Below, one piece after another: positions 6,495-30,276 of a stretch of DNA of 38,094 bases. This stretch comes from a virus. Position numbers and translations under genes: made by a program. The stretch is from the IMG/VR virus record IMGVR_UViG_3300032287_003506, positions 1 through 38,094 of that record; one strand, given 5' to 3'. A model generated the notes under the pieces. The model was not told where the DNA came from. It did no database searches and saw nothing but the letters and a program-made list of their open reading frames with translations. Numbering within the stretch: the stretch's first letter is position 1; each line of letters begins with the position of its first letter.

Positions 6495-6521
6495 TACCTA
6501 TACGCCAGCCATAGGCAGGGG
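6495..6521 (-). promoter_or_regulatory. Late promoter-like motif, copy C (scaffold and capsid)
   Basis: On the minus strand the site reads CCCCTGCC, then 4 variable bases, then CTGGCGTATAGGTA. The core is identical at 9440-9467 and 30250-30276. It ends 3 nt before the scaffold ATG. The TATAGG box (6497-6502) is 5 nt from the ATG, so a transcript starting at the usual distance would be leaderless. The copy overlaps the last codons and TAG stop of the portal gene. Promoter function is an inference from the repetition and the context. Confidence 0.65.
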
Positions 6522-8480
6522 AGATTGACCGCCACCGGCAAGGAACTCTTCAAGCGAAGGAGGAGTCTCCGGCATAGCGGAATCGCTGGGAGGCATGGGC
6601 ATTTCTGGAGACGCGCCCGCCACATCAGTCAAACCACTTCCCAGACTTGCTTCTAGCTCCGCCTCGATGGCTTGGGTCTCTAGTTTGGCCAGCTTGGCTT
6701 TTTCGAGTCCTTCGTGAGCGCGATAGGCCAGGGGCGAATGCAAGAGGCTCAAGACCAGCTCGCGGACGTCCGGGTCGGCAGGATCGCCCAGCAGCCCGCC
6801 GTTGTACATCTCCATGAGCTGCGCATCTTCCGCCTCGGGAGTGCGCGGCGTGGCGGAACCCTCGACGACCCGAACCGACGCCATTCCCATCTTAAGCGCT
6901 TCCAGACCGGAGTACACCAGCTCACGCTCCGACGGGTTGTTCTTATCGTCGAGCTCCCAGGCCCGCTTCTCCTCGACGTACTTGGAGACGATAATGCCGA
7001 TCCTGGTACCGCGTTGCTCCAGGAAGACTTCGACCTCGTGTGAGAACTCGGAGCCGCTTGTCTCATCGGCGTCTTTGAGGAGACGGATCGAGATACCAGA
7101 CGTGGCGTTTGGATCACCAGCGCCCGAGCTGACTCGGTGAACGCCGGACATTTCCGCCATCTCCTGCCGAAGATCGGACATGAAGCCGGTCACCTTGGCA
7201 AAGTCCAGCATGGGCGGCAAAGTGAACGATGGGGGCGAGAACCCGCGCTTATGCCAGATCTCACGGACGCGGGGAGTCTCGTCAATCCCAAACGACGGCG
7301 AGGAGAGCACGTCGGCCAGGTCTGCGCCCGCCTGATCGCCCTTCTCCCGAACCACGGTCAGCTTCTGATCACGAAGAGCGCCCAGGACGCGAGAGCGCAG
7401 GAGATTGTAATCCGACTGCGGGCCAAGCAGATCGGAGCCGGTACCGGAGTGATACGGCGTCCCGATCCCCTGAGTGCTACCCATCGGCAAGAGCGGGATC
7501 ATGGAGCACGGGAGCGCCTCGCGGTACTCTAGGCACTCGGAGCCACAGACGATAATCTCACGGCCTTCCGGGTAGCGCACAGAGGGAGCTTCGTACATGC
7601 GCTTAACGAGCTGCTGGTTGAGTGTCTTCCCGTCAGTCTGAGAGCCCCAGGGCGAGACGAACGAATCGAAGAGCGAGCCCATGTTCGTAGACTTGCGGGA
7701 GTCGCCAGGGGAGGCGGGAGCGCCCCACGTCGCCTCGATGTCCTCGTTCGTCATGCGCTGAACGTGAATCATCCACTGACACTCGTCCCAGCTTGTGCAG
7801 CGCGGATCAGCATAGACCTCATGGCCGGGTACGAACTGCTCGCGGTAGTTGCCCACGCGCCGAGCTTCGTACTTTGTCGGAGCGCCCTCTTCGTCCCACT
7901 CCACAGCGACATCGGCCATCGCGTTCGGGTCCCAGTATTGCCACAGGAACGCCGTGGTGGCCATCCAGGCATACGTCGCCATACGCTGGAGGATGAGGCG
8001 GAACTTATGGGTCGTGTTGTAGTGCTCAATGACCAGGCGCAGCTCTTTGGCCGCCGCCTCGTCCAGTTCACGGTCGGAGGATCTCGGCAGAACCTGCACA
8101 TCGGGTCGGTTGCTTGTGATTCGCGCCGTGGCGATCTTACAGAGCGGCTTGATGAGATTGACCGTCCGGTACCAGCGCTTGTCCGTCTTGTCCCGAACGT
8201 CCTGGAGACCTTTCTCGGGGTCCCAGTCTACCCACTGCCGCCCGTTGTAGTAGGACAGCGCCATCGCCCATTGACCCTCGAACTGGGAGCGCGACGACTG
8301 CGACAGCTCAAAGCGATCCGTGACCAGCTTGACCGCCTCTTCCCGCTTCTTCTCCCCCAGCTTCTTCGGCTCGCCCGAGTAGACAACCTCAGACGACGAC
8401 GGCCCCGACTCCAGCGACTCACGGCGCTTGAGAGGCAGAGGCTTCTTGGTAAACGGGTTACGAATAGCGGGCAGTGGCAC
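6498..8480 (-). CDS. Portal protein
   Basis: A 660-aa protein starting at GTG 8480 (MPLPAIRNPFTKKPLPLKRR). Typical podovirus-type portal features are visible. Early Trp/Tyr-rich text appears around residues 65-100 (QWAMALSYYNGRQWVDWDPE, DKRWYRTVNLIKPLCKI), and a core follows with YADPRCTSWDECQWMIHVQR. A later helical stem region includes SISIRLLKDADETSGSEF-type text, and a low-complexity Pro/Ser C-terminus ends LPMAGV. The portal forms the dodecameric DNA entry ring at one capsid vertex and binds terminase and adaptor. It is followed directly by scaffold and capsid. Its final codons double as part of a late promoter-like motif. Confidence 0.92.
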   Translation of the reverse strand: MPLPAIRNPFTKKPLPLKRRESLESGPSSSEVVYSGEPKKLGEKKREEAVKLVTDRFELSQSSRSQFEGQWAMALSYYNGRQWVDWDPEKGLQDVRDKTDKRWYRTVNLIKPLCKIATARITSNRPDVQVLPRSSDRELDEAAAKELRLVIEHYNTTHKFRLILQRMATYAWMATTAFLWQYWDPNAMADVAVEWDEEGAPTKYEARRVGNYREQFVPGHEVYADPRCTSWDECQWMIHVQRMTNEDIEATWGAPASPGDSRKSTNMGSLFDSFVSPWGSQTDGKTLNQQLVKRMYEAPSVRYPEGREIIVCGSECLEYREALPCSMIPLLPMGSTQGIGTPYHSGTGSDLLGPQSDYNLLRSRVLGALRDQKLTVVREKGDQAGADLADVLSSPSFGIDETPRVREIWHKRGFSPPSFTLPPMLDFAKVTGFMSDLRQEMAEMSGVHRVSSGAGDPNATSGISIRLLKDADETSGSEFSHEVEVFLEQRGTRIGIIVSKYVEEKRAWELDDKNNPSERELVYSGLEALKMGMASVRVVEGSATPRTPEAEDAQLMEMYNGGLLGDPADPDVRELVLSLLHSPLAYRAHEGLEKAKLAKLETQAIEAELEASLGSGLTDVAGASPEMPMPPSDSAMPETPPSLEEFLAGGGQSPLPMAGV

Positions 8481-8483
8481 GGA

Positions 8484-8789
8484 TTAGGCTCCGGTCTCGG
8501 GAACTTCGCTGGTCTCGACAGTCTCGGATACTTCACTCGCCTTGACTTGTTCGGCCAGCAGCTCCAGGAACTTGCCTAGCTCACGGACGAAGGCAGCTTG
8601 GCGGGGGGAGATGAACGGGAAGGTCTTCAGTCCATCGCGGACAATTCGCATCATGGGCTTAATGCCCGCAATCGCGCCGGGAGTCAGGAGGGACAAGGCA
8701 TCGAAGGCGGGCTCGGTCGGAGCGGACAGTTCGGCGATCTTTTCCGGCTCGGCATCTGGAGATTGTATGGGCTTGGTTCTGTTTGCCAT
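8484..8789 (-). CDS. Hypothetical protein upstream of portal
   Basis: A 101-aa protein, MANRTKPIQSPDAEPEKIAE. ATG 8789 was chosen because it lies 2 nt after the upstream gene's TAG; the open frame extends further but overlaps that gene. The N-terminus is polar. The middle (ALSLLTPGAIAGIKPMMRIV) is mildly hydrophobic, and the C-terminus is acidic (ASEVSETVETSEVPETGA). It lies 3 bp before the portal start, so the two are probably translated together. Family and function are not recognised. A small head-assembly factor is possible from its place only. Confidence 0.65.
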   Translation of the reverse strand: MANRTKPIQSPDAEPEKIAELSAPTEPAFDALSLLTPGAIAGIKPMMRIVRDGLKTFPFISPRQAAFVRELGKFLELLAEQVKASEVSETVETSEVPETGA

Positions 8790-8791
8790 GA

Positions 8792-9154
8792 CTACGCCAC
8801 CGGTTCCAAGTCTTGACGTTGAGCATGATCGTATCCACACATAATTGCGTTAGCAAACCATGTGTACATCAGCTCTTCATCGCTATCGGGGAACAGTCGC
8901 TTAAACTCTTCGGCCCATATTTTTGCATTGAACGTGCTTGTGAGGTCGCTACGTACCTGCCTGTCTCCTGTTTTGTCTGGTGGTACAGGCGGATGGCAGC
9001 AACGGCAAGTATCAACCAACCCACACCCAGCACAAGGCAAGACAGTTGATTGTTTATCAGCGGTCGCTGGGCAATTACCCTCTGCCGTTTTAGGCATCAT
9101 GGCGATCACTAGCCCGGTCAAGGCAAATCCTAAAAATTTAAATCGGTTCATCAT
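8792..9154 (-). CDS. Secreted Cys-rich small protein
   Basis: A 120-aa protein with a clear signal-like N-terminus: Met-Met-Asn-Arg-Phe-Lys, a hydrophobic stretch GFALTGLVIAMM, then KTAEGN. A likely cleavage site follows AEG or lies close to it. The mature part is rich in Cys (CPATADK, CAGCGLVDTCRCC) and then helical (WAEEFKRLFPDSDEELMYTW). Upstream GAGAGGA serves as ribosome binding site. A secreted protein at the start of the head operon is unusual. It could act in the envelope during lysis or superinfection exclusion, but no family is recognised. The second Met codon is an equal start candidate. Confidence 0.7.
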   Translation of the reverse strand: MMNRFKFLGFALTGLVIAMMPKTAEGNCPATADKQSTVLPCAGCGLVDTCRCCHPPVPPDKTGDRQVRSDLTSTFNAKIWAEEFKRLFPDSDEELMYTWFANAIMCGYDHAQRQDLEPVA

Positions 9155-9228
9155 GGTTAGTTATCCTCTCAGGTTCTCGTAGTTTTGGTTGTTTTTGACA
9201 TAGTTTTTCTCAGGAGATAGGAATCGGG

Positions 9229-9435: not shown

Positions 9436-9439
9436 ACGT

Positions 9440-9467
9440 TACCTATACGCCAGAGAGAGGGTAGGGG
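9440..9467 (-). promoter_or_regulatory. Late promoter-like motif, copy B (head operon)
   Basis: On the minus strand it reads CCCCTACC, five bases CTCTC then TCTGGCGTATAGGTA, and ends 4 nt before ATG 9435. It is one nucleotide longer than copies A and C. The site follows the early terminator at 9541-9575, as expected for a promoter that restarts transcription for the head genes. The TATAGG box is at 9442-9447, 6 nt before the start codon. Confidence 0.68.
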
Positions 9468-9534
9468 AAGTAGGGGCAGAATCCAATGTCGAAAAATTAA
9501 GACTAAGCCCAATTCCCCCAAAATCGAGGGAATT

Positions 9535-9575
9535 AAAAAAGCCCCAACTGTAAAGTATCGCTTTACAGTTGGGGC
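9535..9575 (-). terminator. Early operon terminator
   Basis: A perfect 15-bp stem (9541-9555 with 9561-9575) has a 5-nt loop and is followed on the minus strand by six T (9535-9540). It lies 25 bp after the stop at 9600 and marks the end of the early transcript. A second, weaker hairpin with 7-bp arms (9511-9517 and 9528-9534) follows. The rest of 9468-9534 holds no gene that I can support. Confidence 0.93.
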
Positions 9576-9599
9576 GAGTAGGGAGAACTGTCTGTGGGG

Positions 9600-10605: not shown

Positions 10606-10624
10606 GTTTTTTTCTTCCTCCACT

Positions 10625-14779: not shown

Positions 14780-15495
14780 GAGACACCTCTCGCCTGTTGG
14801 GCTAGTTGCAGACCTATGAACTCCGTATAGGCAGGAGGAATCGCCTGAGAGAGCCCCTTCATCGGCATCCAGTTGATCCCCATTGCCTCCTGCGCGGCTT
14901 TCACGTCAAACGTTTCTCTCTCTTCGTTTCTGACTACGTTCTGCTGAGCGGTCGATCCCGTAACAGTTATGGTTTTCCTGCGATTCCACCGCGATGAGTC
15001 ACTCATCGCGGTGTGCCCTGTAACCGTGATGGCTCGTCGAGCCACTTTGCCATGACGGCACGTAAGGCCACAAAGAAGCAGCCAGTTGGTCTCAAATAAG
15101 CGGTGCCGTCGCAACTCCGCCCCGCACGTAGTACACAATCCGAACATCGTCCCGCAAAGCATTACGGGATTCTCCAGAGGAGCGCCGGGTACGTTCTCAA
15201 TCACGTAGGGTTTGCCGGTCGCTCTCAGAAGCGCACGGGTCTGGGGGATCAGGTTGGGGTGCTCTTTATAGTTGGGCATCCCCTTGAGCGCACAAAACGC
15301 CTGACAAGGCGGCGAAGCGTGTATGGCGTCGAACTCCCGCCAGTGTTTAGCTAGAAACTCCAGCGCGTCACACTGGACAAAAGCAAACGGGTATCGTGGC
15401 TGGGGATTAATGTCCACACCAATCACCTCGAAGCCCGCACGATGATAGCCCATGGCAGCGCCACCCTGGCAACAAAAGAGATCAAGAAGTTTCAT
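14776..15495 (-). CDS. C5-cytosine DNA methyltransferase
   Basis: A 239-aa protein; ATG 15495 overlaps the previous stop as ATGA, and the open frame upstream is not used. Motif I is LDLFCCQGGAAMGYHRAG (residues 4-21), and motif II-like text VIGVDINPQ follows. Motif IV SPPCQ (61-65) holds the catalytic Cys64, motif VI is YVIENVPG (97-104), motif VIII RRHRLFET (129-136) and a C-terminal motif X-like segment PAYTEFIGLQLA. It is short, so the target recognition region is small. It transfers a methyl group from S-adenosylmethionine to cytosine C5. No restriction partner is nearby, so protection of phage DNA from host restriction is likely. Confidence 0.92.
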   Translation of the reverse strand: MKLLDLFCCQGGAAMGYHRAGFEVIGVDINPQPRYPFAFVQCDALEFLAKHWREFDAIHASPPCQAFCALKGMPNYKEHPNLIPQTRALLRATGKPYVIENVPGAPLENPVMLCGTMFGLCTTCGAELRRHRLFETNWLLLCGLTCRHGKVARRAITVTGHTAMSDSSRWNRRKTITVTGSTAQQNVVRNEERETFDVKAAQEAMGINWMPMKGLSQAIPPAYTEFIGLQLAQQARGVS

Positions 15496-16040
15496 GTGGT
15501 AGTGTCGCCTCCATGAGTTTCTGAAGCCGTCTGACTCCGAATACTCTCCAGTGCTTTCTGGTAGATACTCCAAGCCCGCACCGCTGGGATAGACAGGTAC
15601 CGCCCAATCTCCCCGAAGTTCATCCCGTCCAGCGTGTGCAGCTCGAACACGCGCAGCTCCTCCTCTTTGCCCTCCAGCGCCCTCTGGTAGATACTCGCCA
15701 GCTCTGAGACATCACCGACGCCCACGGCCCCGGCGTTATCCCTCTCAACCTTGCAGATCATGGCCTGAGTGATAATCACGTCACGGGTCTCCTGCCGTTT
15801 GCTCGCTCGATAGTGATCCTTGATTCGGCTGCGCACGACCAGGCGGGCATAGGCCGACCAGGGGCCACGCGCAGAGTCCCACGAGACGACCGCCGAGAGA
15901 AGCGCCGTGTGCCCCACAGAGACCAATTCCTTGACCTCCTCGGGCTTGTGGCTGAACTCATAGGCGATCAGGCTCGCAATGCCCACGGACGACGCCACGA
16001 GCGCCCTCTGAGAGTCCGTGAGTGGCTGGACACTCGTCAC
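15492..16040 (-). CDS. Sigma-70-like RNA polymerase factor encoded by the phage
   Basis: A 182-aa protein; GTG 16040 was chosen because it overlaps the helicase stop as GTGA, with GGGGGTGGG just upstream. Region 2-like text runs at residues 32-72, with ELVSVGHTALLSAVVSWDSA, RGPWSAYARLVVRSRIKDHY and R, close to the conserved sigma pattern for core binding and -10 recognition. Region 4-like text is EEELRVFELHTLDGMNFGEI then GRYLSIPAVRAWSIYQKALE, a plausible helix-turn-helix for -35 contact. There is no region 1.1. It resembles small alternative sigma factors. In the early operon it could direct host RNA polymerase to the three late promoter-like motifs. That link is inferred. Confidence 0.82.
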   Translation of the reverse strand: MTSVQPLTDSQRALVASSVGIASLIAYEFSHKPEEVKELVSVGHTALLSAVVSWDSARGPWSAYARLVVRSRIKDHYRASKRQETRDVIITQAMICKVERDNAGAVGVGDVSELASIYQRALEGKEEELRVFELHTLDGMNFGEIGRYLSIPAVRAWSIYQKALESIRSQTASETHGGDTTT

Positions 16041-18934
16041 GACCCACCCCCAGACTTTGGCAGGGGACACGTTCGCCGCCACCAGGACGCCAGTGTAAAC
16101 ATCCGGGCTCTCAGCTCAGGCTCCGCCGCTTTGGCCTCCTCATACCGACCAGGCGTGTCGTGCAGAATGCGCAGCTCTTCCAGCTCGGCTTCCAGCTTGG
16201 CCCACACTGCCGCCTGAGAAACGCTTGAGGCAGCGATCTTGCCCGAGTTGAAGTCTCGACGTGTCCACTCGATGAGAGCCTTCTCATAGACTCTGACCGC
16301 CAGCGTGTCGGCGGGGTCATGGTCAGCCTTCGGTGGGGGATTCTCCGGGAAATCGGATATCGAGGGAGCAAGCCCCACCAAGGCAGGCTTTTTCTTAGTT
16401 TCTTCGTTACCGGTTACACCGGTTACACCAGTTACACCAGAATCTATATTTTGTGTATGTGTGCGCGTACGCGTACGTGTGTAATAGGGTTCCGGTGTAA
16501 CCGGTGTAACCCGTAGATGTAGAGGCGGATTTTCCGGTGTAACCTTTGCAGATTCTAAACCGACTTTTTGGGCTTTTTGGGGCTCTCCAGTCGGTTCAGC
16601 CATGTCCAGCTCGTCCGTTTCGTAGGCGATGGCGATCCCGTCCCAGCCCCGAACGGCCTTACCGGCGATCTTACGTACAGGCGACGGCGATCCGCCCGCC
16701 CGTCGAAGTCGCTCGCTGAACTGGTTAGGGGATGCGTGCCACTTCTCCCCATTGTCCTCGCACCAGGTATCGTAGGCGCTCCGGAGTTCCTTGGTCGAGC
16801 ACCAGACGCCAGGACGAGCCACGCAGCACTCCTTAAGAAACTTGCCGATCTGGTCTTGCTCCTCGCGGTAAGAGGCGGAGCTCTCCAGAACGGCCTCGGG
16901 GGTTCCCAGGCCGTGCTCCTGCCACGCCAAGCAGCCCGCCACCATCCAGGCGAAGATCCCGTCTACTTCGGCTTGGAGCTTCGTCAGAAGATGCTTATCG
17001 CGATCCTCTTGAGGAATTGTCACACTCCACTCGATAAGAGGTAGACGCCGCCAGATTCCCTCGTCTTGGTTGCGGATCTGGGGCTTGTGGTTGCCGTAGA
17101 GAGTCAGCTTGAACTTCGGGACAAACTCAAAAGGCGATGCGTGTAAGTGCCGTGCGATAATCACGTCGCCGCCAGTAAGGTCTTTGATCAGGCTCTCATT
17201 GAATCCACGCCCGCCGATGATCTCGGAGCCGATGACCATTCGACGGCCCGCCAGGCGCGCGATATCCGGGCTTGCCTGACCACCCCGAGGTTTATCATCC
17301 GTCAAGACAGCAAAGGGAACGCGAGTCGCATAGTCGCCCATGACGAACTCTTCCATCGAGGTATAGATACTCTTGCCGTTGCCGCCGTCGCCAAAGTGGA
17401 ACGCCACGACCTGCTCGCCGGTTTCCCCGGTCAGGTTGTAGCCGGAGAAGCGCTGGAGGTACCCGCGAATCTCGGTATCAGGCTGCCACGTCGTCAGACA
17501 CTTCTCCCAGAGCGGCGCTTTAGCGTCTTTGTTGTAGCTCGCCTTGCTGATGTACGTGCAGTAGGCTAGGGGATCATGATCCCGTAGGGTTCCCGTCCGA
17601 AGATCGAGGATACCGTTCTGGCAGTTGATCACCATCGTATCGGAATCCCATGTCGAAGCCGTGGCACGAATGCGAGGGTCAGACTTTGCCAGATCCAGAA
17701 ACGAGCGAATCTTTCCCGCCTGGTTGCTTGCCTTGACGAACTGCCGCCAGAGCTGGCACTGCTTCTCGTCCTTGGGCTCTTCCTCTTCATAGAGAGAGCG
17801 GGCCACCATCACCCCAAAGTGCAGCACGGTACCGCCATCCACGTCTTGCTCCCACCGCTTGCCATCCCAGACCATCCAGCCGCGAGTCGGGTCAAAGCGG
17901 ATCTGGTCTGCAAAGTGGGTCAAAAACCGCTCTTTGTTGCCAACGTCCGTCCACTTCTCCGTGATGTACGATTCACCAAGAACACTTCCTGAAACTGCGG
18001 GAACCGATCCCATGAAGTCATCATCTTCGACCTTAGCAAAGTTTCGAGAAGGCAGTCCGGTACTCTTTGGCCTCGGCTCAGTCCTGGTCCAAGGTTGCCG
18101 AGCTGCTCGATTGTTGGCCTGCTCCCAGATGTGCTCCATGTCGTCGTCAAAGTCGGATCCCATGGCGGCCTTAAAGTCAGCAAGGCAGGCAAGCGCTTCG
18201 CCCGCCGAGAAGGCATTGTCGCGGAGTTGGAGAGCCAAGTCAAAGGCGGTTCGATTCCGCCCGCCCGGCCTCGCCAGCCCGATATATTTCTCCAGAAGTT
18301 TCGCACTGGAGACATCGGAAGAAACTGAACCAGCAAGCGATCGCAAAGCCGCAGTAGTATCCTTTGGCTTGACAGGCTCAGGATCGGCAAAGATCGTGTG
18401 ATCCAGAAAGACATCCTCTTCGCCCCCGTGAGCATAAACAAAGGCGTCTTCCAGCCCAGTCTCGGGACACGACGGCCAGAAGTAGATCCGGCTCGGGTCT
18501 TTCGTGGCGGCGTCGCAGTGTCCGCCCATGATCTCTCGATTAAGCTTCGCCCACACAGACGCCCATGCCGAGGCAGGAACAGCCTTCCTCAAGGGAAACA
18601 CTGCCCGCCACTTGGGCTTCTCCGGAGTGGACGAGAAAGACGAGTGGAGAGCCCAGACCAAGCCCGACCAGTTGGGGAGTAGCTCACTCCAGTCGGTACC
18701 GTCATCCACATCGGCGACAAAGCACGTCACCAGCTCGACGCCCGCAGCCCCCCGAGTCTCACCCGGCGCGTAGACAGTCGGAGACCACAGAGAGCCCTTC
18801 GCCTGCTTGCCGTCAGCTTTGGCGGGCTGGACAGTGTGGCGAGCAAACCGGCGCGAGAAAATATCCCACGCCTCAATTTTGCCCACCGGCATCCGATCCA
18901 GAACGCCCGTAAATGTAGAGAAACGTATCAGCAT
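16037..18934 (-). CDS. Primase-helicase, archaeo-eukaryotic primase plus SF3 (D5-type) helicase
   Basis: A 965-aa replication protein, of the type seen in P4-like elements, that unwinds the origin and primes DNA synthesis. The N-terminal primase-like domain shows VADVDDG (about 74-79), LHSSFSSTPEKPKWRAVFPL (96-115) and DAATKDPSRIYFWPS (141-155). A D5-N-like middle is at about 325-500. The helicase shows Walker A GDGGNGKS (515-522), Walker B-like RRMVIGSEI (564-572), a sensor-like LYGNHKP (612-618) and an arginine pair IWRRLP (627-632). The C-terminal part (about 797-841) is a low-complexity linker with VTGVTGVTG and TRTRTRTHT, encoded by the candidate origin. The ATG overlaps the RuvC stop as TAATG. 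Confidence 0.92.
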   Translation of the reverse strand: MLIRFSTFTGVLDRMPVGKIEAWDIFSRRFARHTVQPAKADGKQAKGSLWSPTVYAPGETRGAAGVELVTCFVADVDDGTDWSELLPNWSGLVWALHSSFSSTPEKPKWRAVFPLRKAVPASAWASVWAKLNREIMGGHCDAATKDPSRIYFWPSCPETGLEDAFVYAHGGEEDVFLDHTIFADPEPVKPKDTTAALRSLAGSVSSDVSSAKLLEKYIGLARPGGRNRTAFDLALQLRDNAFSAGEALACLADFKAAMGSDFDDDMEHIWEQANNRAARQPWTRTEPRPKSTGLPSRNFAKVEDDDFMGSVPAVSGSVLGESYITEKWTDVGNKERFLTHFADQIRFDPTRGWMVWDGKRWEQDVDGGTVLHFGVMVARSLYEEEEPKDEKQCQLWRQFVKASNQAGKIRSFLDLAKSDPRIRATASTWDSDTMVINCQNGILDLRTGTLRDHDPLAYCTYISKASYNKDAKAPLWEKCLTTWQPDTEIRGYLQRFSGYNLTGETGEQVVAFHFGDGGNGKSIYTSMEEFVMGDYATRVPFAVLTDDKPRGGQASPDIARLAGRRMVIGSEIIGGRGFNESLIKDLTGGDVIIARHLHASPFEFVPKFKLTLYGNHKPQIRNQDEGIWRRLPLIEWSVTIPQEDRDKHLLTKLQAEVDGIFAWMVAGCLAWQEHGLGTPEAVLESSASYREEQDQIGKFLKECCVARPGVWCSTKELRSAYDTWCEDNGEKWHASPNQFSERLRRAGGSPSPVRKIAGKAVRGWDGIAIAYETDELDMAEPTGEPQKAQKVGLESAKVTPENPPLHLRVTPVTPEPYYTRTRTRTHTQNIDSGVTGVTGVTGNEETKKKPALVGLAPSISDFPENPPPKADHDPADTLAVRVYEKALIEWTRRDFNSGKIAASSVSQAAVWAKLEAELEELRILHDTPGRYEEAKAAEPELRARMFTLASWWRRTCPLPKSGGGS
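16405..16544. other. Candidate replication origin: iterons and alternating purine-pyrimidine tract
   Basis: Three tandem 9-bp repeats, GGTTACACC (16412-16420, 16421-16429) and AGTTACACC (16430-16438), face three copies in the opposite orientation, GGTGTAACC (16494-16502, 16503-16511, 16536-16544). A partial unit lies at 16405-16411. Between the groups is a 32-bp strictly alternating pyrimidine-purine tract (16452-16483) with a 12-bp palindrome CGTACGCGTACG (16466-16477) and an AT-rich stretch. The pattern resembles initiator binding iterons flanking an unwinding region. It lies inside the helicase coding frame. Function as an origin is inferred. Confidence 0.6.
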
Positions 18935-19542: not shown

Positions 19543-19775
19543 TACAGACCCTCCACTTTCACGATAAGCTTTCGTCGAGGTTGATCCTCAACAATCGCCA
19601 CACTCTTCGGATGAACCCGCTTAAACTCGTCCCACCAGGCTTCCCCATTGACCGCCCGGAAGTATTTCTGCCAGTCGCCCGGAGTCGGGAGAAGCGCAGC
19701 ATCGGCAGCGCAGATCTTCCGCAGCTCCTCGGAGGAGAGAAAAACCTCGTGCGTTTGGGACGGGTTGGGGATCAC
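19542..19775 (-). CDS. Small protein of unknown function (77 aa)
   Basis: A 77-aa protein starting at GTG 19775, which overlaps the upstream stop as GTGA. It begins MIPNPSQTHEVFLSSEELRK. The open frame continues upstream, but that stretch is occupied by the 56-residue gene in another frame. It contains WQKYFRAVNGEAWWDEFKRV and ends KLIVKVEGL. The charged, Trp-rich core may bind nucleic acid or protein, but no family is recognised. The upstream and downstream couplings (GTGA, TAATG) support the start and the gene. Confidence 0.65.
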   Translation of the reverse strand: MIPNPSQTHEVFLSSEELRKICAADAALLPTPGDWQKYFRAVNGEAWWDEFKRVHPKSVAIVEDQPRRKLIVKVEGL

Positions 19776-19942
19776 TTGCTCACCTTGCTCTCGGTCGTGG
19801 TAGAGACCAATACGCCAGAGCCAACTCGGGGAGTCGTCAGGATGTCGTCGAGGAGTCGGTTCACCACCGTCAGGAGAGAGGCTTTCTCCCCGCCTGGAGT
19901 GAACTCGACGACTATCTCGACGGGTTTCTGGGTAGACTTCAC
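19772..19942 (-). CDS. Small protein overlapping ParB-like gene (56 aa)
   Basis: A 56-residue gene from GTG 19942 (overlapping the ParB-like stop as GTGA) to the TGA at 19772-19774, which overlaps the next GTG. It reads MKSTQKPVEIVVEFTPGGEK and ends TTTESKVSK. The neighbouring long frame in another phase is a shadow. The two coupled overlaps and the plausible short beta/helix layout support it as real. No family is recognised. It explains a 160-bp gap between two well-supported genes. Confidence 0.65.
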   Translation of the reverse strand: MKSTQKPVEIVVEFTPGGEKASLLTVVNRLLDDILTTPRVGSGVLVSTTTESKVSK

Positions 19943-20712
19943 TTCTTCTCACCCTCCAGCTCACGAAGACGCATAAGCGCCTTATCCACCGATCCGTACT
20001 TCGTGCGAGCCCACCAGTAAATCTCAATCTCAGCCGGAGGAGCCTGCCGCTCTGTCCCTGTCTTCTCCGCCCGGACTTTCTCACGAACGACGTACTCGGG
20101 AGCCTTCTCACGCGCGCACTCGTTGGCAATCGCAGTAATGCGCTTTGTCGGGGTTCCCGCCTGGACGAGCTCCACCAGGGGACGAGCCGCCTCTTTAGAC
20201 AGCTCTTTCGTCGTGATCTGGGTCTGCACCGAGGCGGGCAGGGTCAGAAAGCCCAGCTCGCGATGAACATGGGCATCCGTCACACCGACAGCCTTTGAAA
20301 TCTCTCTCTGGCTCATGCCCATTCGTCGCAGGCGATCAAAGGCCCGTGCCCTCTCCAGAGGATCAAGCGCTTTTCGGTGGAGGTTTTCGACAATCGCCGA
20401 CACCAGATCCCCGGCAGCTATCTCCGCCTCGGGACGCCACGGGAGGCACAGACAGAGGGTTTCCTTAATCCCGACATCGTTTCCCGCCATGACCCGACGA
20501 TGACCCGCCACGATGTAGAACTTCCCCGGTTCCTTGGCAGCTCGCACAAGAGGCGGCTGGAGAATCCCGGATTGCTTGACGGATTGAATGAGATCGAAGT
20601 CCGCCGAGTTATCCTTGATGGTTCTGGGATTGTGCCCAGGGCGAACCATGAGGGACTCCAGGGCGACGACCTTAGCCACGGCGACGTTCTCGGGTTTCGT
20701 GCTCGTGCTCAT
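19939..20712 (-). CDS. ParB/Spo0J-like DNA-binding protein
   Basis: A 257-aa protein; ATG 20712 overlaps the preceding stop as ATGA and starts MSTSTKPENVAVAKVVALES. The N-terminal ParB-like domain shows VRPGHNPRTIKDN (about 25-37), SGILQPPLVRA and VAGHRRVMAGNDVG (GHRR in place of the GERR box), and ENLHRKALDPLERARAFDRL. A helix-turn-helix is at RRMGMSQREISKAVGVTDAH then VHREL. It ends with a charged tail. No ParA partner is in the genome. Orphan ParB-like proteins in phages may act as regulators, nucleases or replication factors, so partition is not assured. It is the first larger gene of the early operon. Confidence 0.82.
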   Translation of the reverse strand: MSTSTKPENVAVAKVVALESLMVRPGHNPRTIKDNSADFDLIQSVKQSGILQPPLVRAAKEPGKFYIVAGHRRVMAGNDVGIKETLCLCLPWRPEAEIAAGDLVSAIVENLHRKALDPLERARAFDRLRRMGMSQREISKAVGVTDAHVHRELGFLTLPASVQTQITTKELSKEAARPLVELVQAGTPTKRITAIANECAREKAPEYVVREKVRAEKTGTERQAPPAEIEIYWWARTKYGSVDKALMRLRELEGEKK

Positions 20713-21041
20713 CGTGCCCCCCGTCGAGTCCAAGGACTAGGAGACACGGCCCAGGCGAGGAGCCAGAAGAAAGCCAGAGCGCCCAGGGCGAGACCCTTCC
20801 CGACAGAAGTCCCGTGGTCAAGAGTCGGAGCCACCGCCAGGATAAGCCAGGCAATGGAGAAGAGGCGGAGCCAGAGCGCCACATTGAAGCGAATCTCCCG
20901 CAGCTTCTCTTCCTTGCGCAACATCTGAGCAATGGTCGTCAAGAGGCGAAGAGAGCCAACCTCACACGCCGCACAGTAGGAATAATGAACAGGACAAGCA
21001 CCACCACACCGGGCGCACCGTCCGAAGCGAATCATACTCAT
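20709..21041 (-). CDS. Zinc-ribbon membrane protein
   Basis: A 110-aa protein, MSMIRFGRCARCGGACPVHY. The first 27 residues carry two CxxC pairs (CARC, CAAC), as in a small zinc ribbon. Two hydrophobic segments follow, at about 57-72 (LRLFSIAWLILAVAP) and 84-101 (GLALGALAFFWLLAWAV). The N-terminal domain is probably cytoplasmic. The start overlaps the preceding stop (ATGA) and its stop overlaps the ParB-like start. The role is unknown. The 68-aa late protein at 9229-9435 has a membrane helix followed by a CxxC, so the two may be loosely related. Confidence 0.68.
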   Translation of the reverse strand: MSMIRFGRCARCGGACPVHYSYCAACEVGSLRLLTTIAQMLRKEEKLREIRFNVALWLRLFSIAWLILAVAPTLDHGTSVGKGLALGALAFFWLLAWAVSPSPWTRRGAR

Positions 21042-21905: not shown

Positions 21906-22141
21906 GCCGCCACCCCACAAGCCAGGCTCGCCGCCCGTGCCGCCGCCTCTTCTGCCGCCATATGCTCGCCGCCCCAGTTGCAGGATCGGTCAGAGCACAC
22001 GCGCACGAGGCGACCGTCGCGAAGAGCAGAACGAGTAGAGCCACCACACTCAGGGCAGTGAGTAGCTCGCTTTGCTGCACGGTTCGCCAAGATGGTCTCC
22101 GCGATAATGCGGGAGGTGCTGGGTTTGAAGTCGTTTCTCAT
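21902..22141 (-). CDS. Small zinc-ribbon protein, first gene after early promoter
   Basis: A 79-aa protein, MRNDFKPSTSRIIAETILAN. It has a helical basic N-terminus, then HCPECGGSTRSALRDGRLVR and VCSDRSCNW, four Cys in two pairs that look like a zinc ribbon, then an Ala-rich end. It resembles the small zinc-binding proteins of phages that bind DNA or RNA polymerase. The start codon lies 6 nt after the -10 box of a strong promoter, so the mRNA is predicted to be leaderless. It is the first gene of the early operon, so it may act as an early regulator. Confidence 0.7.
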   Translation of the reverse strand: MRNDFKPSTSRIIAETILANRAAKRATHCPECGGSTRSALRDGRLVRVCSDRSCNWGGEHMAAEEAAARAASLACGVAA

Positions 22142-22147: not shown

Positions 22148-22176
22148 ATTTTATGCCATATCTGCATATTATGCAA
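22148..22176 (-). promoter_or_regulatory. Early leftward promoter with internal operator O2
   Basis: On the minus strand: -35 TTGCAT (22171-22176), a 17-bp spacer and -10 TAAAAT (22148-22153). The ATG at 22141 begins 6 nt after the -10 box, so the transcript should be leaderless. The operator-like dyad O2 (22156-22171, CCATAT-N4-ATATTA) fills the spacer. It also overlaps the end of the Cro-like gene. Confidence 0.78.
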
Positions 22177-22396
22177 GCAAAAAAGGGGCAAGTCTCTTGA
22201 TTATTTCTTCGCAAGAGAGCCCCGTCGCCTCAGAAAGTTTCGGAATATCGGTCAGCCGCAACGCTCTTTTTCCAGATAGCCAGCGAGAAATAGTAGGTTG
22301 GGTAACCCCCAATCGTGAGGCGATCTCTTTCTGGTTAAATCCGGTCTCCTTCAATGGACGACCTTTTTTAGTTGTGATCCGAGTCGTTTCAGTCAT
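22169..22396 (-). CDS. Cro-like XRE transcription regulator
   Basis: A 75-aa protein, MTETTRITTKKGRPLKETGF. The open frame extends upstream, but ATG 22396 was chosen because it sits 7 nt after a good -10 box. A helix-turn-helix is visible at residues 22-44: QKEIASRLGVTQPTISRWLS then GKRALRLTDIPKLSEATGLS. The protein ends LAPFLLA. It is the size of small phage Cro repressors and faces the CI-like repressor gene. It probably binds the CCATA-type dyads and favours lytic growth. Confidence 0.85.
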   Translation of the reverse strand: MTETTRITTKKGRPLKETGFNQKEIASRLGVTQPTISRWLSGKRALRLTDIPKLSEATGLSCEEIIKRLAPFLLA

Positions 22397-22403: not shown

Positions 22404-22433
22404 TTTATACCATATGAGCATATGGAAGCGCAA
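22404..22433 (-). promoter_or_regulatory. Promoter of Cro-like gene with internal operator O1
   Basis: On the minus strand: -35 TTGCGC (22428-22433), an 18-bp spacer and -10 TATAAA (22404-22409). The Cro-like ATG at 22396 is 7 nt away, so the mRNA has no room for a ribosome binding site. The perfect dyad CCATATGAGCATATGG-like sequence O1 (22410-22425, 6-bp arms, 4-nt centre) lies in the spacer. Confidence 0.78.
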
Positions 22434-22450: not shown

Positions 22451-22462
22451 TGTCTTTTTATG

Positions 22463-22478
22463 CCATAGGGGTATAGAA
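22463..22478. promoter_or_regulatory. Operator-like dyad O3 in front of the repressor gene
   Basis: CCATAG-N4-ATAGAA matches the consensus of O1 (22410-22425) and O2 (22156-22171) in the CCATA and ATA half-sites. It overlaps a -10-like TATAGA (22472-22477) that has a TTGCGT (22446-22451) 20 bp upstream, so the promoter itself is weak by eye. The position suits autoregulation of the repressor. Confidence 0.6.
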
Positions 22479-22492
22479 TGCACTTCGTAAAC

Positions 22493-25713: not shown

Positions 25714-25717
25714 AATA

Positions 25718-27805
25718 TTAAACTCCTATTCCTATGCCGACACCAAGCCGTCGGCGGGCTATAGATACTGGTATCGCTGGTAGTTCTGCCGCTACCGCAA
25801 TGTCAAACTGAGGTTGCAGCAGCACCCTCATTGCTTCAGCGTCAGCAGCAATCGGGTGGATCTGGTCAGAGATCGTCCCCGCCGACGCGACGATTTTTCC
25901 CGCCGTGACTACCGTGTTCCATGTGTTGTCATTGGCGAGGTGGTTTGTCTCGCAGACCGCCGCCGTATCTATGACGTACAAATCAAGAGGCCAGCCCGCC
26001 CCAGTGGAGCGAGCACCCGACGAGACGAACGCGCTACCGTTCCAGCGAAACACGAGGGTCGGCCTGCCCGTCAGCGCCCCGAGCTCGGCGTTCGTGCCGG
26101 AGCGCAGGAGTGTGTGCCAGCTCGCACGGGCGCTTGTCTGCCCAGCGTTGCCTGTCGCAATCGGGGTCAGCGTCGTGGCGATCAGCTTACGGACTTGACT
26201 CCCTGAGCCACACCAGCGCGTCCAGCACGTTGTTTTTGAAGCCAGGAGTGACGCATATCCCAAGTTGCCCCAGACATCATTTACGCCAAGCTGGTCTATG
26301 ACTTGCTCAGAGGCTTTGGTCAGCACCGTACCCGATAGGTCGTTTGCGACAATCGCCGTCGTCGCCGCTCTCATCCCCGCGACGCCTAGCTGAGTGGTCG
26401 GTATGCCATTGGTCGCCGCAAGGTTGTAGAGGTACGTCCCAGGCCCAGCGGCGATAGAGTCGCCACGGGCAACAAGCTCCCGGTCAGCAATCGCATTGCC
26501 GACCATCCGCCCACGAATGAACGAGGGGCCATAACCATACGACGTTCTATCGGTCGTGTAGTTGGCGGGGTCAATGTTGGTTGTCGTGTTCGTCCCTGTG
26601 CCACGCCGCCCCGATGTGCCTGTGAGCTGCATCGTGGTAGGCATGAAGAGAATCCCACCAGCAGCAGAGGCGTACGTGAGCACCCTGATATTCTGGTTTG
26701 GGAAGAAGACACGATTGATCGGGTCAGCATAAGCCACCTCACCCCATGCAAGAGTCTTGCTGCTGGCTCCGCCAAACGTCAGGGGGATCGAGGCGGTGTC
26801 ACCTTCCACGAAGTACGCCGCGCTGATTGTGATGGTGGCCTGTTTCGCAGGCTCCACGCCCTCACCCTCGGTAAAGCTCGTGCGAGCATTGACGAACCCG
26901 AGCTCTAGGTCTGTTGTGGGACGCGTGACATTGAGAGGGGGAGTAAGCCATGTATCTTGCCCCGTCGCCGCCCATGATTGCCCCATGCCCAGCACTTGCG
27001 GAGCCGTTACCACGCAGATCCGCGCTTTTGTCGTGAGGCCAGGGATAGCGCCCTCGCTAGGGTAGGCAGTGAACGGAGGGAGGAGTCCTTGCCCTAGGTT
27101 GTAGAGCGCCAGAAAGTTCTTATCGCTTAGGGCGCTGGGAGCATAAAACGCTCCCTGCACGGCGATAGCGGCATGGTGTGGCGACGCGTTGGCGGCGAGG
27201 CCATTGATTCGCAGGGGGAGGGTAGAGTCTACAATCGTGCCCGTGTAGGTTCGGCTCACCGCCCGAAGCGATCCTCCAGATTGCGCTTGCCCTAAGTAGA
27301 ACGTCAGCGTTTTGGTGGCGACAACGTGCCGGACACCAATCCACACCCAAGTGCTATGAGTGATGCTGTTATTGGCGTAGGCTTGCGGGTCAATCGGGTC
27401 AGCGTCAGAGAACGGAGGGACGGCAGGCGATGTTGTACCGTTGCCAAGATAGGCCGACACAGAACCAGATCCAGACCAGAGCACGAAGTCAAAGCGGTCG
27501 TACCAAGTACCACGGCCAAAAATCGAAACACTGCCAGGGTTCGGGTTAGGCATTCTGACGAACAGGCCCATTGAGAAATCGCCCGAGAAGTCCACGGCAG
27601 AAGCGCCCGTGGCTAGAAGTGCATCGCCGTAGGTTGCGCCGAACTGGTCGGCCTGCCCGCCTCCAGCAATCTGCCCGGCGATCTTGGTGATTGTGCCAGA
27701 TGGGACAAATGGGTTAGGTGCAGCACCTAGGGAGTTGATGCGGTTGCCTGATGTCTCATTAAGTGCCCAGAAGTGGGTCAGTACTGCAAGAAGTGGCGAA
27801 CTCAT
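25718..27805 (-). CDS. Tail fibre or receptor-binding protein with LamG-like and SGNH hydrolase domains
   Basis: A 695-aa protein. ATG 27805 overlaps the amidase stop as TAATG. Residues 1-240 look like a concanavalin/LamG-type beta sandwich (FSMGLFVRMPNPNPGSVSIF; WVWIGVRHVVATKTLTFYLG). The C-terminal part (about 444-676) is an SGNH hydrolase. Block I is ARGDSIAAG (Ser450), block III is QLGVNDVWG (507-513) and block V is SDQIHP (Asp647, His650). It probably removes acyl groups from a host surface polysaccharide during binding. It is the largest gene of the second late block and follows holin and amidase. Confidence 0.85.
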   Translation of the reverse strand: MSSPLLAVLTHFWALNETSGNRINSLGAAPNPFVPSGTITKIAGQIAGGGQADQFGATYGDALLATGASAVDFSGDFSMGLFVRMPNPNPGSVSIFGRGTWYDRFDFVLWSGSGSVSAYLGNGTTSPAVPPFSDADPIDPQAYANNSITHSTWVWIGVRHVVATKTLTFYLGQAQSGGSLRAVSRTYTGTIVDSTLPLRINGLAANASPHHAAIAVQGAFYAPSALSDKNFLALYNLGQGLLPPFTAYPSEGAIPGLTTKARICVVTAPQVLGMGQSWAATGQDTWLTPPLNVTRPTTDLELGFVNARTSFTEGEGVEPAKQATITISAAYFVEGDTASIPLTFGGASSKTLAWGEVAYADPINRVFFPNQNIRVLTYASAAGGILFMPTTMQLTGTSGRRGTGTNTTTNIDPANYTTDRTSYGYGPSFIRGRMVGNAIADRELVARGDSIAAGPGTYLYNLAATNGIPTTQLGVAGMRAATTAIVANDLSGTVLTKASEQVIDQLGVNDVWGNLGYASLLASKTTCWTRWCGSGSQVRKLIATTLTPIATGNAGQTSARASWHTLLRSGTNAELGALTGRPTLVFRWNGSAFVSSGARSTGAGWPLDLYVIDTAAVCETNHLANDNTWNTVVTAGKIVASAGTISDQIHPIAADAEAMRVLLQPQFDIAVAAELPAIPVSIARRRLGVGIGIGV

Positions 27806-28401
27806 TATTTACCCTCACGCTCTAAAATAGCGTCGAAAACATCGCTCCAAAATGCAATGCGTCCGTCTCGGTCGTCCTCGCCCCAGATAGAGGCCCGGTC
27901 ATTGGCATTCGTGATAAATCCAAACTCGCAAAGGCAAGCCGGGATAGAGATAGTGGATCCGCGTAGAATGGCGAGCGTCGCATGTTGGGAATCTTCCTCC
28001 GTCTTTAGTCCACGGTCGCGCAGTCCAAACGCCGAGAGAGCAGCTTTCTGCACAACTCCCGCCAGCCACTTATCGCCAGCGTCTCCAGAGCGGTAGAAAG
28101 TCTCTATGCCCGTGGCGGCAGGAGTGGCGCTGTTGAGGTGGCAGGAGATAAGGTACTGTGCTCCCTCGCGCATGGCCTCGGCGGTGCGCCCTCGGAGCGG
28201 AGCCGACTCGGTGAGGGTATCGCGGGTGAGGATGAACTGTATTCTCCCTGCGTAAAAGTTCTTGGCGACATACGCCCCAGCGACGACAATCGCCATCGTG
28301 AGGTCAGATTCGCGCAGCCCTGCCGCCGTCGCCCCAGGGTCAAACACTCCAGGGGTTCGGGAGTCCTGCCCGTGCCCTGCGTCTCCGCAAACAACAATCA
28401 C
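27805..28401 (-). CDS. N-acetylmuramoyl-L-alanine amidase, endolysin
   Basis: A 198-aa Amidase_3-type enzyme that cuts the bond between MurNAc and L-Ala in peptidoglycan. Zinc ligands and catalytic Glu are visible: DAGHGQD (H10), GLRESDL (E31), SCHLNSA (H88) and CEFGFITN (E159). There is no cell-wall-binding domain and no signal peptide. It starts at GTG 28401, coupled to the previous gene (GTGA), and is next to the holin. It is probably released through holin holes to lyse the host at the end of growth. Confidence 0.92.
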   Translation of the reverse strand: MIVVCGDAGHGQDSRTPGVFDPGATAAGLRESDLTMAIVVAGAYVAKNFYAGRIQFILTRDTLTESAPLRGRTAEAMREGAQYLISCHLNSATPAATGIETFYRSGDAGDKWLAGVVQKAALSAFGLRDRGLKTEEDSQHATLAILRGSTISIPACLCEFGFITNANDRASIWGEDDRDGRIAFWSDVFDAILEREGK

Positions 28402-28607
28402 TCTGCACCTCGCGACGGTATATCAATCGCGTCCCTGAGAGCGCCAAAAGCCTCATCGAGCCGCGAAAGTGCGTCAGATGCCCGGCCAGAGAGCGCCATG
28501 TCTATAATGGAGCCAATCGGCCCGGCCAGCATGGCGACAACCACGTCGCCGCGCTTGGAGCCAAGAGCCTGTCGAATAAGCCACCGAGAGACTTTACTTA
28601 GGTTCAT
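28398..28607 (-). CDS. Small protein between holin and amidase
   Basis: A 69-aa protein, MNLSKVSRWLIRQALGSKRG. ATG 28607 was chosen; the open frame upstream overlaps the holin gene more deeply. It overlaps the holin stop by 14 bp. The middle (DVVVAMLAGPIGSIIDMALS) is hydrophobic enough for a single membrane helix, and the rest is helical (LDEAFGALRDAIDIPS). It could be a second small holin or antiholin. This is inferred from place and the weak membrane stretch. Confidence 0.65.
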   Translation of the reverse strand: MNLSKVSRWLIRQALGSKRGDVVVAMLAGPIGSIIDMALSGRASDALSRLDEAFGALRDAIDIPSRGAE

Positions 28608-29184
28608 CGTCTTTATCTTTCTTCTCTTCTCTGGGGTTAGGCAGTGCGCTTTTTGCCGCTTCTCCCATGGCTTTCGCAAACAGCCCCAGCAGCTTCTCAG
28701 CAGGCCCGAACCTCTTCCCACCCTTGACGTGGAGACGGGTCAGGGTTTCCATGACCGAGGCGAGCTCGATGAGGGTCACGGCGTACCAGCATCCCGCGAT
28801 CATCCAATACGCCTGAAGTAGTGCCCCAAGCACGTAGGCGGTCAGGATAAACAAGCCGTAGTAGAGGAATTTGGAGACTAATCTCTCCCGTAGCAGGCGA
28901 GAGCGAAACTCCCGAAACATCGCGGCGGCAGCAACACCGAAGATTGTGTCAATGCCAATCAACAACGTAGCGCCAACCGCGCCAAGATTTACACTTTCCG
29001 GGGCTTTCGCCCAGAATGAGATAAACGAACCCAACCCTAGGGCCAGAAAATTAGTCAAAATGCGCCCCTTCGTCCAATATGCTGTACGCACGTTTGGTTT
29101 TTTGCACCAGAGAACCATGAGAAGACTGATGATAGAGATACCCGGAGTTCCTGTCATTGATATTGATGCAAGTACATGATCCAT
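28594..29184 (-). CDS. Phage holin-like membrane protein
   Basis: A 196-aa membrane protein with several hydrophobic segments (IISLLMVLWC; ILTNFLALGLGSFISFWA; VGATLLIGIDTIFGVAAAAM; FLYYGLFILTAYVLGALLQ). The layout DTIFGVAAAxxFREFRSRLL, then an IELASVMETLTRLHV end, matches toxin-secretion/phage-lysis holins of the TcdE type. The C-terminus is highly charged (REEKKDKDDEPK), as in holins that control timing. It is followed by a small membrane protein and the amidase, so the three form a lysis cassette. Confidence 0.8.
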   Translation of the reverse strand: MDHVLASISMTGTPGISIISLLMVLWCKKPNVRTAYWTKGRILTNFLALGLGSFISFWAKAPESVNLGAVGATLLIGIDTIFGVAAAAMFREFRSRLLRERLVSKFLYYGLFILTAYVLGALLQAYWMIAGCWYAVTLIELASVMETLTRLHVKGGKRFGPAEKLLGLFAKAMGEAAKSALPNPREEKKDKDDEPK

Positions 29185-29189
29185 TCAGG

Positions 29190-29567
29190 TTACTCTGCCC
29201 ACACATTTCCTAGTTCATTTTCAGCAGCATACTCTTCTACGGCGTCGGCAAAAGCCTCCGAGCTTTCGCAGTCGTCTTCGCGAGAATGCAACCAGTTATT
29301 AAGTCCTGTGATCCATGCCGCCGTTTGCTCGATGGCTCCCTCAAGAGGATTTAGCAGGGGAATAAGTACCGTCTCGATTCCGAGCTTCCCGGCCCCGAAG
29401 AGCATTTCATTCATGTAGGGCATAGGCCAGCCCCACGGCCCACTCTGCGCCCAGGGGGGCAGCACACTGGAGTAAGCCAGCGCAGCGGGAGAAGCGAGCC
29501 AGTCCAGACTATCGTCGAGGTTCTGGACAAACTGAGCCCGCGTGATCGGTAAAAGTGAACTAGGCAC
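29190..29567 (-). CDS. Virion-region protein of unknown function (125 aa)
   Basis: A 125-aa protein. GTG 29567 was chosen because GGGGGTGG lies about 9 nt upstream; an equal candidate is GTG 29576. It begins MPSSLLPITRAQFVQNLDDS and contains a Trp/Pro-rich segment LPPWAQSGPWGWPMPYMNEM and a later helical, acidic end (DAVEEYAAENELGNVWAE). It overlaps the previous gene by 8 bp. It sits between an ejection-like protein and the holin. No family is recognised. A small structural or ejection protein is a guess. Confidence 0.65.
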   Translation of the reverse strand: MPSSLLPITRAQFVQNLDDSLDWLASPAALAYSSVLPPWAQSGPWGWPMPYMNEMLFGAGKLGIETVLIPLLNPLEGAIEQTAAWITGLNNWLHSREDDCESSEAFADAVEEYAAENELGNVWAE

Positions 29568-30246
29568 CGGTTCCACCCCCTGCTCCTGCACCCATGGCGA
29601 TCTGACGCGCCAGCTCTTGCCACCCCTGGAGAGTCGCGGCGTCTTGGTTGAGTGCGTTGGCTTCCTGTCCGCCCCTAAGCTGGAGGAGCTGCGCGGCGAT
29701 CCCCTGACCACCGGAGAGCCCGGCCCCGAGCTGGCCCTGGCCCCGTGCGATCTGTTGGGCGAGTAGCTCTATCTGTGCCCGTTTCCTTTGCTCTTGGCGA
29801 AGGATGTTGTCCGAGGCGATCTTGGCGCGAGCGCCCGCCACGCCAGCAAGTCTCCGATCCTCAATCGAGGTCTGAGCCCCAATCAGAGCGCCGGAGCCCA
29901 CAGAGTCGGTTGGAGTCTGCCGGGCGATTCGTGCAGCAGCTCGTTGCGCGTCTTGGTTGATTCCCTCGGTCTGTGCGGCCAGCTCCGCCTGGTCGAGATC
30001 CGAGTTTCCGTAGTCGGTCTTGAGATAGTTGGAGTAGTCCGCCACGGCTTCGTCGAGTTGGGGAGAGTAGCCCTCCAGAGTCGCTTGACCCTGCCGAGTG
30101 AGGCCGTCCCACCCGCCACGATACCCATCGAGCGTAGTAGCAGCCGATTCGGTTGCCTTGCGAGCTTGACCCGATTTTGAGGGAGTCAGCCACGAGGCGA
30201 GCTTTCCAGCGCCGTAGGAGGCAGCAGCCGAGAGTAATGGAGCCAT
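29560..30246 (-). CDS. Predicted internal or ejection protein (228 aa)
   Basis: A 228-aa protein, MAPLLSAAASYGAGKLASWL. It has a short hydrophobic start, then Ala/Gln/Glu/Arg-rich helices (QDAQRAAARIARQT; ILRQEQRKRAQIELLAQQIA) and a Gly/Ala-rich end GAGAGGGTGA. This low-complexity helical type is common in podovirus internal proteins that enter the host with the DNA. It is the first gene behind the late promoter-like motif A. Function is inferred from composition and gene order. No domain is recognised. Confidence 0.72.
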   Translation of the reverse strand: MAPLLSAAASYGAGKLASWLTPSKSGQARKATESAATTLDGYRGGWDGLTRQGQATLEGYSPQLDEAVADYSNYLKTDYGNSDLDQAELAAQTEGINQDAQRAAARIARQTPTDSVGSGALIGAQTSIEDRRLAGVAGARAKIASDNILRQEQRKRAQIELLAQQIARGQGQLGAGLSGGQGIAAQLLQLRGGQEANALNQDAATLQGWQELARQIAMGAGAGGGTGA

Positions 30247-30249
30247 ATC

Positions 30250-30276
30250 TACCTATACGCCAGAGAGAGGCAGGGG
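30250..30276 (-). promoter_or_regulatory. Late promoter-like motif, copy A (ejection, lysis, fibre)
   Basis: On the minus strand CCCCTGCC, five bases (TCTCT), then CTGGCGTATAGGTA, ending 3 nt before ATG 30246. It directly follows a terminator (30281-30313) and precedes the block of ejection, lysis and fibre genes. It shares the core with copies at 6495-6521 and 9440-9467. The TATAGG box is at 30252-30257. Confidence 0.68.

Follow-up and report, generated by a model that had tools for sequence, protein, structure and literature searches.

We found that the virus record IMGVR_UViG_3300032287_003506, analyzed over its whole length of 38,094 nucleotides (nt; hereafter the window), carries three near-identical copies of a short two-part motif at the start codons of late gene blocks, and we regard the three sites, judged by sequence and placement, as likely late promoters. 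The best explanation, which we hold to be reasonably probable, is that these promoters are read by the phage's own sigma factor; the activity of the sites as promoters, their recognition by sigma, and the start point and timing of transcription are all predicted. We favor this explanation because of the position of the motif, its terminator context, the different early promoters, and the presence of a genuine sigma gene. In the immunity region, host-type promoters (TTGCNN-17/18-TATAAT-like) would drive the early genes, the sigma gene among them. The phage-encoded sigma factor may then join host core RNA polymerase and direct it to CCCCTRCC-N5/6-CTGGCGTATAGGTA, and the sigma-bearing polymerase would activate the portal, scaffold/capsid, and lysis blocks. 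Control of this type is already familiar from other phages, and here it would occur in a lineage that has no known close relatives, with a puzzling recurrence of the core in Vibrio phages.

Confirming the preliminary description of this DNA, which had listed an identical 14-nt core before the ATG codons at 6491, 9435, and 30246, we found three exact copies of CTGGCGTATAGGTA in the window, all on the minus strand (Table 1). The block shared by the three sites is approximately 30 nt long and at site 1 crosses the last portal codons, placing a repeated conserved element ahead of late transcription units. When genomes were simulated with a third-order Markov model, 4 of 200 contained any 14-mer in at least three copies, a count that does not yet require a start-codon position; the probability of a random site falling 3 to 4 nt before one of the 44 listed starts is about 0.001. 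The exact triple placed at start codons is not a chance occurrence. At up to three mismatches to the core, only one further site appeared (19805-19818, two mismatches), and we rejected it as a fourth copy, as it lies within a gene and has no upstream element. Since 4 of 100 shuffled sequences reached four such sites (mean, 1.26), the count at up to three mismatches proves little, whereas the exact triple does. A two-block scan of the window revealed no fourth site, with the three sites scoring 35.5 to 36.0 and the next best 16.7, and the one other 14-mer family with at least three copies in the window lies inside probable coding repeats (34174-36756). A literature search for the exact 14-mer together with phage returned no match, which leaves room for published work that the search missed, and one for the 10-mer GCGTATAGGT together with phage returned only seemingly unrelated matches.

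The element CCCCTRCC was found upstream of all three cores as described earlier, although its distance from the core is not fixed, being 5, 6, and 5 nt. CCCCTRCC occurs nine times over both strands of the window, with three of the nine at the motif, and the chance of its occurrence per site is approximately 0.0005 when four offsets are allowed. Its nearness to the core and its slightly variable spacing make it a weak candidate for a -35 element.

All three sites lead into late genes, as had been claimed, with the head, portal, and lysis blocks identified by family matches. Site 1 is followed by a gene that occupies the scaffold position but matched no family, and then by the major head protein gene; site 2 leads into a 68-amino-acid membrane-like open reading frame (ORF; ATG 9435) followed by the portal block, and site 3 into a block with holin and endolysin genes. 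The placement of one copy in the last portal codons also holds, with site 1 including the portal stop codon. Two copies had been said to follow strong terminators directly. This is true of site 3, which lies 4 nt from its stem, but less so of site 2, which is approximately 73 and 40 nt from the two stems that precede it; no terminator-like stem is listed just before site 1. Because terminator-like stems precede them, the blocks at sites 2 and 3 would need a new transcription start.

The sigma-70-like gene reported in the early operon proved to be genuine, as its product matches Sigma70_r2 (PF04542) with 29.4 bits against a cut-off of 24. Matches to region 4 (PF04545, 20.2 bits) and to the sigma70-ECF model TIGR02937 (residues 39 to 184, 39.0 bits) fell just under their cut-offs of 24.1 and 42.9, respectively. 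A weak match to phrog_1740 was also observed (residues 59 to 183, E value of 5.6e-5, 22.8 bits), a family matched far more strongly by two experimentally proven sigma factors, phi32_gp36 of phage phiEco32 (E value of 1.9e-45, 156 bits) and SaPh711_gp47 of phage 7-11 (E value of 1.1e-38, 134 bits). Pairwise BLASTP of the window sigma factor against either of these proteins gave no significant alignment, and a single-sequence AlphaFold2 model (mean predicted local distance difference test score, 41) was too low in confidence to say anything on the fold. A PHROGs scan took in 39 of the 47 ORFs listed for the window, and the only transcription factors recognized among these were the sigma factor and repressor-type helix-turn-helix (HTH) proteins, with a ParB-like protein (19939-20733) as a further DNA-binding candidate. 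The same scan detected no other initiation factor or RNA polymerase and no single-subunit (T7-type) RNA polymerase; a PF00940 search for the latter was silent, as were its controls. Most of the small proteins scanned are without known identity.

The operon containing the sigma gene is headed by the host-type promoter-like sequence TTGCAT-17-TAAAAT. Together with TTGCGC-18-TATAAA, it bears out the earlier observation that early promoters have TTGCNN -35 boxes unlike the late upstream element. In the immunity region, TATGSCATA-like repeats (e.g., TATGGCATA and TATGCCATA) overlap the early promoter-like sequences at 22148-22176 and 22404-22433 and occur also at 22456-22482. Judging from their sequence, these repeats are likely repressor operators, and the early mRNAs from 22141 and 22396 are likely leaderless.

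Table 1. Predicted regulatory sites and associated features, in window coordinates except where record positions are named
Feature	Position	Strand	Remark
Predicted late promoter core CTGGCGTATAGGTA, site 1	6495..6508	-	3 nt before ATG 6491; includes portal stop codon
Predicted late promoter core CTGGCGTATAGGTA, site 2	9440..9453	-	4 nt before ATG 9435
Predicted late promoter core CTGGCGTATAGGTA, site 3	30250..30263	-	3 nt before ATG 30246
Upstream element CCCCTGCC, site 1	6514..6521	-	5 nt from core
Upstream element CCCCTACC, site 2	9460..9467	-	6 nt from core
Upstream element CCCCTGCC, site 3	30269..30276	-	5 nt from core
Sigma-70-family factor, region 2 and probable region 4	15492..16082	-	Start GTG 16082 or 16040
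Early promoter-like TTGCAT-17-TAAAAT	22148..22176	-	6 nt before ATG 22141, head of operon with sigma gene
Early promoter-like TTGCGC-18-TATAAA	22404..22433	-	7 nt before ATG 22396 (HTH regulator)
Terminator-like stem-loop after capsid genes, before tail genes	4201..4233	-	Motif does not follow
Second stem-loop between early-operon terminator and site 2	9508..9537	-	About 40 nt before site 2
Terminator-like stem-loop, end of early operon, before site 2	9541..9575	-	About 73 nt before site 2
Terminator-like stem-loop directly before site 3	30281..30317	-	16-bp stem by fold, with a 5-bp part of it also listed separately; ends 4 nt before upstream end of site 3
Endolysin (Amidase_3), site 3 block	27805..28401	-	
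Holin (Phage_holin_4_1), site 3 block	28594..29184	-	
Intergenic CGTATAGGT sites, MAR10 (L034/L035)	Record positions 20909, 48972, 64955		
Intergenic CGTATAGGT sites, SSP002 (L036/L037)	Record positions 19580, 47687, 63643		

Phage phiEco32 (Kuravirus) and Salmonella phage 7-11 are worked cases of phage sigma factors whose promoters are known, and the window would be a compact further case in which only three near-identical sites offer a sharp and cheap test. Like the window, phiEco32 encodes a distant sigma-70 factor (gp36, which serves middle/late promoters) that matches phrog_1740, the window protein doing so weakly, and has few, highly conserved elements in low copy number before late genes. 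The two differ in that phiEco32 is a lytic phage of 77.5 kb and the window a temperate-type genome of 38 kb, and in that the gp36 promoters have been shown experimentally and those of the window are predicted. T4 late promoters resemble what is predicted for the window sites in being short, -10-only late promoters read by a phage sigma-like subunit (gp55); they differ in having the element TATAAATA and in needing the sliding clamp and gp33. A further difference from phiEco32 is that gp36 lacks region 4, according to PMC8948821 and to our own searches, which gave no region 4 match for gp36, whereas the window sigma factor probably has one. The consensus phiEco32 element is tAATGTAtA, with transcription starting 6 to 8 bp past it (PMC8948821); in our own alignment, TGGCGTATA matches it in six of nine letters, with GTATA in common. 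The sigma factor of 7-11, gp47, is similar to that of the window in combining a region 2 match and a region 4 match (the latter just under the cut-off in the window) in one short protein, in its link to late genes, which is predicted for the window, and in matching phrog_1740, to which the window protein gave only a weak match. The mapped 7-11 promoters are described in the same source as bipartite, GTAAtg-(16)-aCTA (PMC8948821), and are unlike the window motif in both sequence and spacing.

Several observations, gathered in this and the following paragraphs, weigh against sigma-dependent late promoters at the three sites. CCCCTRCC lies only 13 to 14 nt from TATAGG, with a variation of 1 nt, a short spacing if region 4 is to recognize it as a -35 element. 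No motif follows the strong stem at 4201-4233, so the tail genes would rely on read-through or something else. In a related setting, the 7-11 promoters predicted from sequence in 2015 (PMC4331800) differ from those mapped in 2022 (PMC8948821). As a separate observation, the position of the 4201-4233 stem between the capsid and tail genes is reminiscent of a capsid attenuator.

The predicted start point is sensitive to the element chosen. In phiEco32 and 7-11, transcription starts 6 to 9 bp from the element (PMC8948821), and the same spacing applied to TGGCGTATA would place the start at the ATG or within approximately 3 nt of it, leaving the late mRNAs with no leader or almost none. This geometry depends on the choice of element, since taking the whole 14-mer as the element would put the starts, 6 to 9 bp past it, inside genes. 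Pairing to the Shine-Dalgarno (SD) complement was -3.8 kcal/mol at all three late heads, -1.5 at 22141, and -2.9 at 22396. Weak SD pairing was found at five of five assigned unit heads and at 7 of the 28 remaining starts (Fisher P = 0.003), with both the threshold for weak pairing and the choice of heads set after the data had been seen. The test started from 35 starts, comprising 32 of the 44 listed (12 overlapping or uncertain starts were left out) and 3 alternatives, from which 22478 and 22493 were removed prior to counting; 22478 is a possible plus-strand head with pairing that is not weak (-6.6 kcal/mol), dropped as an uncertain start. Weak SD pairing at the heads is consistent with leaderless or nearly leaderless late mRNAs, and from the geometry and this pairing we consider the chances evenly balanced that the late mRNAs are nearly leaderless. 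If they are leaderless, a single short element would tie the timing of late genes to their translation. A literature search for leaderless late promoters gave a mycobacterial match only.

A third point concerns relatives, as no relative carrying both the sigma gene and the motif was found. The preliminary description had proposed a search for related phages with the core and a homologous sigma factor, and none emerged from the sets searched. There was no near DNA match to bases 1 to 25000 of the window among 50,697 phage records, and in viral_contigs the sigma factor, head protein, and portal had no close relatives and the terminase one distant relative. By tblastn in the phage collection, the sigma factor had no match, the portal one match (22%), and the terminase and primase matches in 117 and 1117 records, respectively, all distant. 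Terminase alignment searches retrieved 7 relatives in viral_contigs with two sequences and 168 with eight, and 2 in genome_contigs; with the best 80 of the 168 viral_contigs relatives kept, 85 loci were available in all. Three of these loci match the window head protein, and three other window proteins match in 1, 3, and 2 loci. PF04542 matched in none of 50 terminase relatives drawn from the 85 loci, mainly those on longer contigs, and positive controls were detected. Sigma factors among the 50 could be missed, because many of these sequences are incomplete and even phi32_gp36 does not reach the PF04542 cut-off. In the phylum to which the Viridilinea genome belongs, a portal search run without a positive control was negative in all 400 genomes. 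Within the sets searched the phage is thus an orphan, apparently of a lineage without known close relatives.

Searches for the motif itself gave few candidates. The pattern CCCTN{4,9} plus the core was found in three viral stretches, two of one type and one being Vibrio phage MAR10, and chance matches among them are possible; the stricter CCCCTRCCN{4,7} plus the core was found in no genome stretch. A single exact motif copy, with CCCT upstream and in a seemingly intergenic position, is present in each of two short viral contigs that belong to one type (L005, 2188-2210; L006, 2602-2624). The start-proximal pattern TGGCGTATAGGTAN{2,5}ATG was found in 35 stretches of viral_contigs, in all 35 as a single copy at up to one mismatch. 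The ATG opens 377 codons in two related contigs, 73 codons or fewer in 32, and in one the locus ends at once. We took these stretches as coding or chance matches. In a genome related to the window by its head protein (40,000 of 40,197 bases searched), two 12-mer families have at least three copies on either strand, and neither is placed like the motif when compared with the ORF list of that genome.

The final point against sigma-dependent promoters comes from the Vibrio phages MAR10 and SSP002 (Mardecavirus), in which the 9-nt core CGTATAGGT occurs six and four times, respectively. Permuted 9-mers averaged 0.6 occurrences, with none reaching six in MAR10 and 0.85% reaching four in SSP002. Three of the CGTATAGGT sites are orthologous between the phages, intergenic, and beside terminator-like hairpins, and a fourth site common to both and the other two of MAR10 are inside genes. 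The full 14-mer occurs once in MAR10 as an exact copy. No sigma factor was detected in MAR10 by PF04542 or phrog_1740, with controls positive; SSP002 was not searched. Because MAR10 has the core without a detectable sigma factor, the core is not obviously tied to the sigma factor of the window and a one-to-one link between them is disfavored, although a divergent sigma factor could be missed in MAR10, as phi32_gp36 itself falls below the PF04542 cut-off. Mardecavirus resembles the window in having the same 9-nt core beside terminator-like hairpins and differs in that the genes at the clamp and gp083 sites have ordinary leaders with SD-like sequences (by eye) and in that the genome is otherwise unrelated. 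When window proteins were compared with MAR10 at an E value of up to 1e-3, only the ParB-like protein matched (24%, E value of 8e-6). A literature search for MAR10 and promoter gave no match, though published accounts may have been missed. That the core is also present in a Vibrio phage with no visible sigma factor suggests an as yet unrecognized initiation factor.

The presence of the core in MAR10 without a detected sigma factor, together with the placement of the motif at the -10 position, would also fit late promoters with a degenerate or extended -10 element that are read by host holoenzyme and switched on by a different phage activator, for which CCCCTRCC could be the binding site. P2 Ogr, Mu C, and P1 Lpa are kinds of phage late activator. 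The -10 sequences argue against such promoters. A TANNNT hexamer is a basic requirement of housekeeping sigma factors, with the T at -7 being important, and such a hexamer stands 5 to 6 nt before the ATG at both early heads. Within 40 nt before the ATG, none was found at sites 1 and 3, and the two at site 2, the first within CCCCTACC and the second (TAACGT) directly adjoining the ATG, are not shared with sites 1 and 3, so that no housekeeping-type -10 element is common to the three late sites. No activator family appeared among the 39 scanned proteins, many of which are without known identity. We consider host holoenzyme with an activator unlikely.

Extending phage sigma control beyond the window, TGGCGTATAGG may represent a promoter class of unrelated phages read by small initiation factors, some of them too divergent to recognize (as in Mardecavirus), with fully leaderless late mRNAs in the window phage and one sigma factor setting both timing and manner of translation. 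We hold this broad proposal to be quite doubtful.

There is only a small chance, in our estimate, that the conserved sequence instead acts in RNA, as a standard ribosome-binding region or structured leader of late genes. AGGT lies 4 to 5 nt before the ATG, and CTRCC and GGTAR could pair. The weak pairing to the 16S tail at all three sites does not favor this, nor does the extension of sequence identity to approximately 30 nt upstream, across the end of portal coding. Rfam gave no match in the window at gathering scores. A conserved hairpin at the three sites was rejected, as the predicted folds differ among the copies.

Binding of another phage protein, such as the ParB-like protein, for regulation or partition would accommodate the fact that MAR10, a phage that has the core, matches this protein alone among the window proteins compared. 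However, phages often encode ParB-like proteins, the 14-nt core lacks the palindromic form of parS sites, and each of the three sites is tied to a start codon, something that partition would not require; we therefore view such binding as very improbable. An antitermination or other late-operon loading site, suggested by the two sites just after terminator-like stems, has the slightest chance of all, since the sites are downstream rather than upstream of the stems, no stem is listed just before site 1, and no Q- or N-like protein was recognized among the 39 scanned ORFs.

Phage-sigma-read late promoters would belong to what appears to be a complete genome. Bases 1-123 of the window are identical to bases 37972-38094, and one reading frame is open for 1027 codons across the joint of the genome ends. 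This 123-nt identical terminal repeat and the open frame suggest a complete genome of approximately 37,971 bp that is circularly permuted or terminally redundant, although completeness is not stated for the virus record. The window encodes a P22-like portal (PF16510), a terminase large subunit, a major head protein, a D5-type primase, a serine recombinase, and two divergent HTH regulators in addition to the ParB-like protein, Amidase_3 endolysin, and holin described above, and the phage is probably temperate because recombinase and repressor-type genes are present. A 1605-amino-acid protein of the late region (30378-35195) had no match in Pfam (E value of up to 0.001), PHROGs (up to 0.05), or the phage collection (up to 0.001). 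Finally, CCGCCAGAGTGGGGG-type repeats at 34174-36756 lie within two adjacent large late genes and are probably coding repeats.

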